Of a stretch of 64,000 nucleotides of DNA, positions 22,906-43,317 are shown piece after piece. The DNA lies in NCBI RefSeq assembly GCF_000517445.1, contig NZ_CP006965.1, positions 248,001 through 312,000 of the forward strand, given 5' to 3'. The first letter of the stretch is position 1, and the number at the start of each line of letters is the position of its first letter. The position numbers and the translations under genes were made by a program. The DNA comes from Thermococcus paralvinellae. Its GTDB lineage: Archaea > Methanobacteriota_B > Thermococci > Thermococcales > Thermococcaceae. The notes beneath the pieces are model-generated. The model was given only the letters and a program-made list of their open reading frames with translations. It was not told the origin of the DNA and did not search any database.

Positions 22906-22917
22906 ACTTAAACGGCC

Positions 22918-22966
22918 TCAGCTAACCCTCTTTTCTTCACCGCTCAGAGTGGCTAACGCTCATCAT
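22918..22966 (-). ncRNA. C/D box guide sRNA (minus strand)
   Basis: Minus-strand order: C ATGATGA (22960-22966), 12-nt guide, D' CTGA (22944-22947), 3-nt spacer, C' GTGAAGA (22934-22940, one base off consensus), 12-nt guide, D CTGA (22918-22921). The guides would pair with AGUGGCUAACGC and CUAACCCUCUUU; the fifth base of each (G and C) would be methylated by the D-plus-5 rule. Targets were not searched. Confidence 0.82.
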
Positions 22967-23008
22967 TGGCTAAGAGTTTTTAAAGAAAAGAGGATTAAAA
23001 GCTTTGGG
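22967..23008. promoter_or_regulatory. 42-bp bidirectional sRNA promoter
   Basis: Between the two divergent sRNAs. TTTTTAAAG near 22977-22985 is at the right distance for the plus-strand RNA, and TTTTAATCC on the minus strand near 22993-23001 for the other, so the two TATA elements are interleaved. Confidence 0.55.
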
Positions 23009-23057
23009 ATGATGTGCGTTTACCGGTCTGATAGATGATGACATCGGCACTATCTGA
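23009..23057 (+). ncRNA. C/D box guide sRNA (plus strand)
   Basis: C ATGATGT (23009-23015, last base off consensus), 12-nt guide, D' CTGA (23028-23031), 3-nt spacer, C' ATGATGA (23035-23041), 12-nt guide, D CTGA (23054-23057). The guides would pair with ACCGGUAAACGC and AUAGUGCCGAUG, methylating the fifth base (G and U). The 3' box ends one base before the stop codon of the convergent tmk gene, so the mature RNA probably overlaps the tmk 3' end. Confidence 0.84.
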
Positions 23058-23058
23058 C

Positions 23059-40419: not shown

Positions 40420-40494
40420 TTCCTTTTATTTCTTCATGCTTGAGTGAGCGAAGGAATTATATATTGCCGGAGTGTATTCCTAGATGGTGGGAAG

Positions 40495-40740
40495 ATGGAA
40501 ATTGTGATTCCTGATGATGTTCTTATATCGCTCAAGCTTCCCAGAAAGGAGCTTGAAAAGGAGCTTAAGCTCGAGTTAGCGGTTATTCTTTATCAACGGG
40601 GAGCATTGTCACTTGGGAAAGCCGCTAAACTTGCGGGCATTACAAAAAGGAAGTTCCTGGAGGAACTTGCAAAAAGAGGGATTCCAAGACACTACACAGA
40701 AAAGGAACTTGAGGAGGATTTGGAGTTTGCCCGTAGTTAG
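40495..40740 (+). CDS. UPF0175 family antitoxin-like protein
   Basis: An 81-residue small protein: an N-terminal strand (MEIVIPDDVLISLKLP) and a helical segment with a helix-turn-helix look (LSLGKAAKLAGITKRKFLEEL). This is the UPF0175 family, found next to DUF3368/PIN toxins in archaea and cyanobacteria. It likely binds and represses its own promoter, which holds a TATA element (GAATTATATATTG) near 40455. SD GGTGGGAAG. Overlaps the PIN gene by 14 bases. Confidence 0.83.
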   Translation: MEIVIPDDVLISLKLPRKELEKELKLELAVILYQRGALSLGKAAKLAGITKRKFLEELAKRGIPRHYTEKELEEDLEFARS

Positions 40741-41212
40741 CAACTCCACACCGTTAATTCACTTGGCTAAGATTGATAGACTCGATCTTCTAAAAGAGTT
40801 CTTTGGAGAAATCTTTATTCCTGAAGCCGTTTATAGAGAGTGCATCCTTGAGGGTAAAGGTTCAGAAGATTCTGAGCTCATTGAAAAGGCTGAGTGGATT
40901 AAAGTTGTGAGAATAAAAGACGAGACCCTCAAAAAGTCTTTAATGCTCGAGCTTGATGAGGGAGAAAGTGAGGCAATAGTTTTAGCCCTTGAGATGAATT
41001 CCGAATTGCTCCTCATTGATGACTATGATGGTAGGGAAATTGCAAGGGCATTAGGTTTGAAAGTTACAGGAACAATTGGTGTCTTGTTAAAGGCAAAGTT
41101 TCAAGGAAAAATCACCAGCTTAAAAGAGGAGCTCGAAAAGCTCAAGAAAACCGGCTTTTGGCTAAGCGATGAGCTTTATAAAAAGATATTGGAAGAAGTT
41201 GGAGAGAGTTAA
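40727..41212 (+). CDS. DUF3368/PIN-domain toxin-like nuclease
   Basis: A 161-residue PIN protein starting with a TTG at 40727: PVVSNSTPLIHLAKIDRLDL, the typical DUF3368 N-terminus in which SNSTPL replaces the LDTS of classic VapC. The acidic residues follow in LDEGESEAIVLALE and LLIDDYDGREIA. It is predicted to cleave RNA and to be held inactive by the UPF0175 protein. The TTG start overlaps the antitoxin reading frame and has GAGGAGG ten bases upstream, so coupling is expected. Its stop overlaps that of the minus-strand small membrane ORF. Confidence 0.82.
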   Translation: MPVVSNSTPLIHLAKIDRLDLLKEFFGEIFIPEAVYRECILEGKGSEDSELIEKAEWIKVVRIKDETLKKSLMLELDEGESEAIVLALEMNSELLLIDDYDGREIARALGLKVTGTIGVLLKAKFQGKITSLKEELEKLKKTGFWLSDELYKKILEEVGES

Positions 41213-41637: not shown

Positions 41638-41657
41638 TTTCCCTTCTCCTGAAGGGT

Positions 41658-41792
41658 GAATATATCGGGGCGAGGGACGTCAGCCCCCGATAGATGAGAA
41701 AAAGCGAGGTGTGGAGCGGAGCTCCACTACAGGGGATTGAAGGTAGAGGAAGATAAGGGGGCGGAGCCCCCTTGTCGTCCCTCACCGAAGGG
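41658..41792 (+). ncRNA. GC-rich structured RNA candidate upstream of glpK
   Basis: An island of high GC in AT-rich surroundings. Stems: TATCGGGG (41663-41670) with CCCCGATA (41685-41692); GTGGAGC (41711-41717) with GCTCCAC (41721-41727); AAGGGGGC (41755-41762) with GCCCCCTT (41766-41773). The loop of the first holds GAGGGACG (41672-41679), which pairs with CGTCCCTC (41776-41783), giving a pseudoknot. Both hairpins share the apex GCGGAGC. It may be an independent RNA, a glpK leader element or a repeat; strand is inferred from the TATA position. Confidence 0.6.
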
Positions 41793-41801
41793 TTAATATA
41801 T
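41793..41801 (+). promoter_or_regulatory. probable TATA box of glpK
   Basis: TTAATATAT lies 35-43 bases before the glpK ATG, predicting a short leader. It is part of the second copy of the direct repeat. Confidence 0.5.
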
Positions 41802-41835
41802 CTAACTTGGTGATTTTTCATTTTGGTGAACATCA

Positions 41836-43317
41836 ATGGACAAATTTATACTTTCTCTTGATGAAGGGACAACTTCTGCTCGGGCAATAATCTTCGACAA
41901 GGAGAGTAACATCTTGGGGGTTGGGCAGTATGAGTTTCCCCAGTATTACCCAAAGCCAGGATGGGTTGAACATAATCCTGAAGAAATCTGGGATGCTCAG
42001 CTTAGGGCTATAAAAACAGCTCTAGAAAATGCTAAAATCACTCCAGAGCAGATAGCAGCAATTGGAATAACAAATCAGAGGGAAACAACGATAATCTGGA
42101 ACAAAGATGGAAAGCCGGTTTACAATGCTATTGTCTGGCAGTGCAGAAGAACTGCGGAGATAATTGAGGACATTAAGCGAAATTATGGAGAGATAATAAA
42201 GGAAAAGACGGGACTTGTTCCAGATGCCTATTTTTCAGCTTCAAAGATCAAGTGGCTCCTTGACAACGTCCCAGGTTTGAAAGAAAAAGCTCAGAAAGGG
42301 GAAGTGATGTTTGGAACAATTGACACCTTCTTGATTTACGAGCTCACAGGTGAACATGTTACTGATTACTCCAATGCCTCAAGAACGATGCTCTTCAATA
42401 TCAAGAAGCTAGAGTGGGATGAGGAGCTTTTGGAAATCTTCGGAATTCCAGATGCAATTTTGCCTGAGGTTAAGGAGTCAAGTGAGATTTATGGCTACAC
42501 TAAAAAAGAGCTGTTTGGTGTTGAGATTCCAGTGAGCGGAGACGCTGGGGATCAGCAGGCAGCTCTGTTTGGGCAGGCATGCTTTGATGAAGGCATGGTA
42601 AAAGCAACTTACGGCACTGGAAACTTCATCCTCGTCAATACAGGCAATAAAATAAAGTATTCCCAAAACCTTCTCACGACCATAGCTTGGGGATTGAATG
42701 GAAAAATCAGCTATGCCCTTGAGGGAAGCGTTTTTATAACCGGCGCAGCTGTTCAGTGGCTTAGGGATGGGTTAAAAATTATAAACAGTGCAGCTGAAAC
42801 CGAGGAACTTGCCTCAAAGTTAGCATCAAATGAGGGAGTTTACTTTGTACCAGCCTTTGTTGGTCTCGGTGCTCCTTACTGGGATCAGTTTGCAAGGGGT
42901 TTGATAATTGGTATAACAAGAGGCACTACAAGGGAGCACCTTGCGAGAGCTACGCTTGAGGCGATAGCGTATCTCACGAAAGATGTGATAGATGATATGG
43001 AGAAGGAAGTTTCAATCAAGGAGCTTAGGGTTGATGGGGGAGCAACCAAGAACAACTTCCTCATGCAGTTCCAAGCTGACATCTTAGGAAAAATGGTCAT
43101 AAGACCTGTTGTTCAAGAGACAACCGCTTTGGGAGCTGCATATCTGGCTGGTTTAGCAGTGAACTACTGGGAAAGCTTAGAGGAAATCAGAGATCTTTGG
43201 AAAGTTGAAAGAGTGTTTGAACCAAAGATGGATGAGAAAGAGAGGGAAAAGCTCTACAAGGGTTGGAAAGAGGCCGTAAAAAGAGCTCTAGGATGGGCAA
43301 GGATCATTGGAATTTAA
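41836..43317 (+). CDS. glpK: glycerol kinase
   Basis: A 493-residue FGGY kinase making sn-glycerol-3-phosphate from glycerol and ATP. The N-terminal phosphate loop [11 protein letters not shown], the signature region around [28 protein letters not shown] and the adenine-site motif [13 protein letters not shown] are present. The start [10 protein letters not shown] has GGTGAAC upstream. It lies downstream of the GC-rich RNA element and 133 bases before the G3P dehydrogenase operon. Confidence 0.97.

Follow-up and report, generated by a model that had tools for sequence, protein, structure and literature searches.

What is the GC-rich island just upstream of glpK in Thermococcus paralvinellae? 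The locus lies in a 64,000-nucleotide stretch of contig NZ_CP006965.1 (positions 248,001 to 312,000, forward strand; here called the window). A first-pass annotation, made from the letters alone, had described the island as a pseudoknotted RNA candidate and had offered three identities for it, a glycerol-pathway regulatory RNA, an independent RNA gene of ~130 nt, or a mobile repeat. Its description of the primary sequence held well. The island stands out in AT-rich DNA (GC content, 0.589; window, 0.410), with equal richness in 0.7% of 124-nt windows; it is one of six GC-rich spots in the 64 kb, and those at ~18.8 kb and 55 to 57 kb are tRNA loci. The three stems of 8, 7, and 8 bp are present at the positions given for them, two copies of the apex GCGGAGC are found, and the fold was better than all 200 shuffles (z, −3.65). 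The features are as follows.

41651..41665, + strand: promoter-like motif GAAGGGTGAATATAT, the first of the copies beside the island; other genes of congeners have it upstream too
41661..41785, + strand: three-hairpin element, window copy (covariance-model match 41664-41785, 105.4 bits)
41663..41692, + strand: hairpin 1 (stem 41663-41670/41685-41692, 8 bp)
41672..41679, + strand: GAGGGACG, 5' partner in the claimed pseudoknot, without conservation
41711..41727, + strand: hairpin 2, GTGGAGC GGA GCTCCAC (stem 41711-41717/41721-41727, 7 bp)
41746..41783, + strand: hairpin 3 with extended lower stem, GAGGaaGATAAGGGGGC GGA GCCCCCTTGTCgtCCTC (stem 41755-41762/41766-41773, 8 bp)
41776..41783, + strand: CGTCCCTC, 3' partner in the claimed pseudoknot; in the conserved structure it pairs with the 5' side of hairpin 3
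41787..41801, + strand: upstream motif/TATA region of glpK itself, GAAGGGTTAATATAT; at most one change in 5/5 congeners read, island or no island
41836..43317, + strand: glpK (FGGY kinase), downstream neighbor of the island

Both flanks of the island carry the motif GAAGGGTKAATATAT (41651-41665 and 41787-41801), and a longer form, CCCTTCTCCCGAAGGGTTAATATAT, precedes other genes in congeners (L086, L087, and L089); it is apparently a promoter/operator motif shared among genes.

The covariance search of Thermococcales genomes that the annotation had proposed was run and found compensatory changes in relatives, and covariation across 81 copies supports a conserved single-strand structure. In the 81-copy alignment, which was fitted to the covariance model and so somewhat favors the structure, 97.9% of structure cells were paired (shuffled, 87.9%; slid-partner controls, 50 to 64%). 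Both sides had changed in 22 of 28 pairs (shuffled mean, 10.7), double-change cells numbered 172 (shuffled, 28.1), and the observed pairing and double-change values were reached in 0 of 500 shuffles. Among 65 intact copies, G·U combinations exceeded A·C (132 versus 15), so the folding strand is the + strand of the window; the asymmetry is compatible with RNA or single-stranded DNA alike. Hairpin 2 (GTGGAGC GGA GCTCCAC) covaries with GTGGGGC GAA GCCCCAC of relatives, and hairpin 3 carries a conserved U·G pair. The tail is the 3' side of the extended stem 3, with compensatory changes in tRNA-type copies (GAGAGAUAAG.../CUUGUCUUUC) and in hsp20-type copies (GAGGAAGAUAAG.../CUUGUCUUCC(C)UC). In the window, the ancestral G-run of hairpin 1 has eroded and the stem has re-paired with an upstream GGGG, whereas copy L121 (genome G089) retains the ancestral GAGGGGGCGTTAGCCCCCC.

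The loop-to-tail pairing fared less well. The 8-nt complement GAGGGACG/CGTCCCTC exists (41672-41679/41776-41783), but the pseudoknot that it was said to form is not conserved. A comparable long-range 8-bp complement appeared in 140 of 2,000 dinucleotide shuffles (7%), and the pseudoknot is disrupted in L121, the sole other full glpK copy, because that copy has GAGGGGGCGTTAGCCCCCC. The complement likely arises by chance.

The position before glpK had suggested a regulatory RNA of the glycerol pathway; a glpK leader or riboswitch is a reading of the same kind. In two genomes (that of the window and G089), the island does precede glpK by ~50 nt, but its homologues adjoin tRNA, sR36, hsp20, and other unrelated genes, and G089 is the only congener with an intact island. 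At the glpK locus, G087 has a 3' scrap, G091 and G092 have the 5' part, and G090 has none, yet glpK and its upstream motif CCGAAGGGTTAATATAT are kept (at most one change) in congeners, these four included. A cis-regulatory leader calls for conservation of the island with glpK, which failed in these relatives; they keep the glpK promoter but lost, cut, or never had the island. A glpK-specific role thus appears unlikely from the sequences compared, and a glycerol-pathway regulatory RNA is extremely improbable. The copy looks like a vertically inherited relic in decay. The space upstream of glpK is itself variable: in the window, a UPF0175 gene is followed by a DUF3368 (PIN-like) gene (40444-41212), likely a toxin-antitoxin-type pair, and relatives have different sequence there.

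Judged by sequence, the island is not unique to this locus and is a homologue of many dispersed copies. With the island as query, blastn returned a single full copy in the island's own genome. Congener G089 has an orthologue (94%) ahead of glpK, and other Thermococcaceae genomes gave as many as nine partial matches each. A covariance model built from 21 copies matched 66 of 94 Thermococcaceae genomes at E ≤ 0.01; at E ≤ 0.001, it matched 64 of 115 genomes of the class, every one Thermococcaceae. Genomes carried 0 to 12 copies (one in that of the window), and genus g5 had a match in just one incomplete genome of 13. A degenerate core pattern run over 84,980 GTDB species gave eight records, from Thermococcus/Thermococcaceae only, in a scan that may omit records near the window. 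The core pattern had no match in IMG/VR, and phage and plasmid matches were limited to the tRNA portion of the query. As the annotation had held, it belongs to no known RNA family: Rfam scans of the window and copies at the curated threshold and a permissive E-value (Hgc, H/ACA, C/D, SRP, and RNase P included) matched the element to no family at or near gathering score. Elsewhere in the window, Rfam placed the C/D RNAs sR35 (2536-2591), sR34 (22916-22970), and sR12 (23007-23058). The three-hairpin repeat is apparently undescribed so far in Thermococcus genomes, a provisional term that reflects the open-licence literature searched. A Thermococcus kodakarensis dRNA-seq paper (PMC4247193) mentions several transcripts with stable 3'-terminal structures, and these might include the three-hairpin element.

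Positions were read for 80 copies, nearly all with 2-kb flanks. The element ended at the 3' end of a convergent gene in 53 of them. This gene was a tRNA gene in 31 of the 80 copies, always convergent, and no copy (0/80) had a same-strand tRNA gene in the 60 nt downstream of it or any tRNA gene close upstream. The tRNAs were called by ARAGORN, apart from those at L153 and L160 (two of the 31), which ARAGORN did not list and which were assigned from sequence; the called tRNAs covered 13 isoacceptors. In 28 of the 31 tRNA-linked copies, exactly 3 nt separated CTTTCG from the complement of CCA. Eight of the 80 copies ended at the convergent C/D RNA sR36 (Rfam confirmed in four, by shared sequence in the others) and 14 at a convergent protein stop codon, ten of these at hsp20, three at a pseudouridine-synthase-like gene, and one at another gene. 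A further 10 lay just upstream of a co-directional gene (six SPOUT-like, three sepF-like, and one glpK, in G089; the SPOUT-like and sepF-like names are readings of the translations). Hairpin 3 was missing from 17 of the 80 copies; in these, GAGAGTACAG ran straight into a different hairpin module, of which there were several. The junction GAGAGTACAG| was identical before the differing hairpins in 17/17.

A variant with a AGGGAAACGTAGTTTCCCC hairpin lies just upstream of the sepF-like gene (MGLFDKIIK...) in three congeners (L168 to L170; G089, G092, and G090). A second class of intergenic repeat (~200 to 400 bp) has hairpin ends (e.g., TAGCAAACTTTGC...GCAAAGTTTGATCAAAG) and central palindromes (e.g., GGCGTCCTTCGGACGCC), closely abuts tRNA CCA ends and stop codons (L176 to L180, L215 to L220, L226, and L234), and also occurs in genus g1. 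At L153 (G037), part of a tRNA-Arg(CCG) gene is followed immediately by an open reading frame with resemblance to a tyrosine integrase, suggesting, from the sequence, a candidate integrated element.

Could the copies be independent noncoding RNA genes that act in trans? Strong covariation on one strand only would fit such a family, but many genomes are without any copy, and the exchange of hairpin 3 modules is hard to square with it. TATA-like motifs lay upstream of 6 of 79 copies against 6.9 expected from shuffled sequence, a lack of enrichment that argues against the dedicated ~130-nt RNA gene that the annotation had allowed for; the tRNA-linked subset was slightly higher (5/30 versus 1.9 expected). 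We consider this explanation unlikely.

The main rival to a mobile element is a role as boundary or terminator. Here, the copies would serve the host as a transcription stop or insulator, or as a 3'-end stabilizer, and would have been spread by recombination, a reading to which we give some credence while thinking it rather improbable. Such copies could conceivably, with similarly limited likelihood, block + strand transcription running antisense into tRNA, sRNA, or hsp20 genes or into the next promoter. The side and orientation are identical at all gene borders, the GC hairpin is followed by a U-rich tail (CUUGUCUUUCGUU), and the element shows locus-specific conservation at hsp20, as this role would have it; however, copies are dispensable between related species, the conserved linkers exceed the needs of a terminator, and the gene upstream of the hsp20 copies runs away from the element, leaving no obvious + strand transcript to stop. 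The hsp20 copies lie in the spacer to a CDC48-type ATPase gene; ten genomes keep the element at this position, and its compensatory changes are specific to the locus (L103, L106, L112 to L115, L119, L122, L123, and L125). These copies suggest a host function in at least one lineage, and a heat-shock role of the hsp20-CDC48 element is worth testing.

Mobility, the last of the three identities first offered, agrees with dispersed copies at unrelated loci and with presence/absence between related species. At the tRNA-Gln locus, L214 (G038) and L226 (G040) share a neighboring repeat, and the element lies between repeat and tRNA in L214 only; it is also missing in L215 to L217 and L220 and is present in L225 with a different flank. 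Genome G072 holds two copies (L149/L151), at a tRNA-Arg gene and a SPOUT-like gene, that are 95% identical over 388 bp and end at CTTTCGTT. At the sR36 locus, hairpin 3 is present in G045; in G034, whose locus is 97% identical, a ~270-bp repeat takes its place, and the far end of that repeat again abuts sR36. In a tree from hairpin 2 onward, the hsp20, glpK, and sepF-like copies stood apart from tRNA-type copies, which mixed between loci with low support; we read these results as a mobile family in which some copies have become fixed and pass down vertically, and on such sequence grounds the hsp20, sepF-like, and glpK copies appear to be those inherited vertically. The direction of change at each locus, gain or loss, is inferred.

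We consider it somewhat more likely than not that the island is a degenerate copy, passed down vertically, of a mobile intergenic element that is specific to Thermococcaceae, non-autonomous, and built of hairpin modules. The best reading of the element is REP/MITE-like without inverted repeats, settling at gene borders in one orientation. It draws on the + strand structure, the dispersed copies, their border position, the nucleotide-exact exchange of the last hairpin, and the presence/absence among loci. An enzyme acting in trans would recognize the + strand in its folded form, be it RNA or single-stranded DNA, and would insert or exchange modules at the foot of the terminal hairpin, beside the 3' ends of genes. 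Fixation would have followed for some copies (those of the hsp20-CDC48 spacer, the sepF-like gene, and glpK), which may persist as boundary elements or 3'-end elements; a mobile element and a host function are compatible, and both may hold. The element lacks terminal inverted repeats; its ends read CTGGGGG... and ...CTTTCGTT. No target-site duplication was seen at L226 versus L214, the only near-clean pair. A search for a partner enzyme found none, and the Y1 transposase (PF01797), present in just 2 of 12 carrier genomes, was rejected as the mover.

A relic of an IS200/IS605 element or a guide (omega) RNA is very unlikely. The folded top strand and weak covariance-model matches (10 to 13 bits) at three tnpB-bearing loci point that way, but such scores are at noise level with alignments that break pairs, Rfam gave no match, the tnpB flanks are without blastn similarity, and 10 of the 12 carriers lack the Y1 transposase. 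For an omega RNA, the location at the tnpB 3' end of an autonomous copy was not found by blastn or covariance search, both at noise level.

More adventurously, and we hold this as a doubtful proposal, the element may belong to a single-strand-recognizing mobile system of Thermococcales. Its insertions would lie one nucleotide beyond tRNA CCA ends and flush with stop codons and the ends of sRNAs, and it would swap whole terminal hairpins at the base, replacing the intergenic DNA as far as the functional border. The route, enzymatic or RNA mediated, would be one so far undescribed. Thermococcus is a main genetic model of hyperthermophilic archaea, and its intergenic regions appear to be partly built of exchangeable hairpin modules packed precisely against gene borders. 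The copies provide a defined set of sites for work on tRNA and sRNA 3' ends, antisense transcription, termination, and an enzyme that moves DNA to gene ends, and a tempting but wrong annotation, the glycerol riboswitch, is removed.

Among known systems, the element shares with the Hgc, C/D, and H/ACA RNAs of hyperthermophiles a GC-rich structured island in an AT-rich genome but, unlike them, has no Rfam match at or near gathering score. Omega RNAs have been reported in archaea (PMC12558985). Top-strand hairpins at element ends recall IS200/IS605 ends, PATEs, and omega RNAs; in contrast to IS200/IS605, no ends are shared with resident tnpB elements, and most carriers are without Y1 transposase. 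A review of archaeal MITEs (PMC10969869) names Sulfolobus, Halobacterium, Haloquadratum, and Desulfurococcus and no Thermococcales. Like MITEs, the element is short, noncoding, and dispersed, with recent intragenomic duplicates (L149/L151, 388 bp, 95%); unlike them, its 125-nt unit lacks terminal inverted repeats, its structure is strand specific, and its placement is specific to gene borders. Nor was a target-site duplication seen for that unit. REP/BIME elements of enterobacteria, served by RAYT transposases, are extragenic, palindromic, often located just after genes, present in many copies, and noncoding. Our element is likewise extragenic, palindromic, multicopy, and without coding capacity, and it lies at gene 3' ends (53/80 copies); it differs in its three different hairpins, fixed linkers, fixed gap to the tRNA CCA, and single orientation, and most copy-rich genomes are without a Y1/RAYT-type gene (PF01797 in 2/12 carriers). 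By this comparison, it fails the defining features of REP and MITE repeats where these were tested, yet it is probably these repeats that it is most like.
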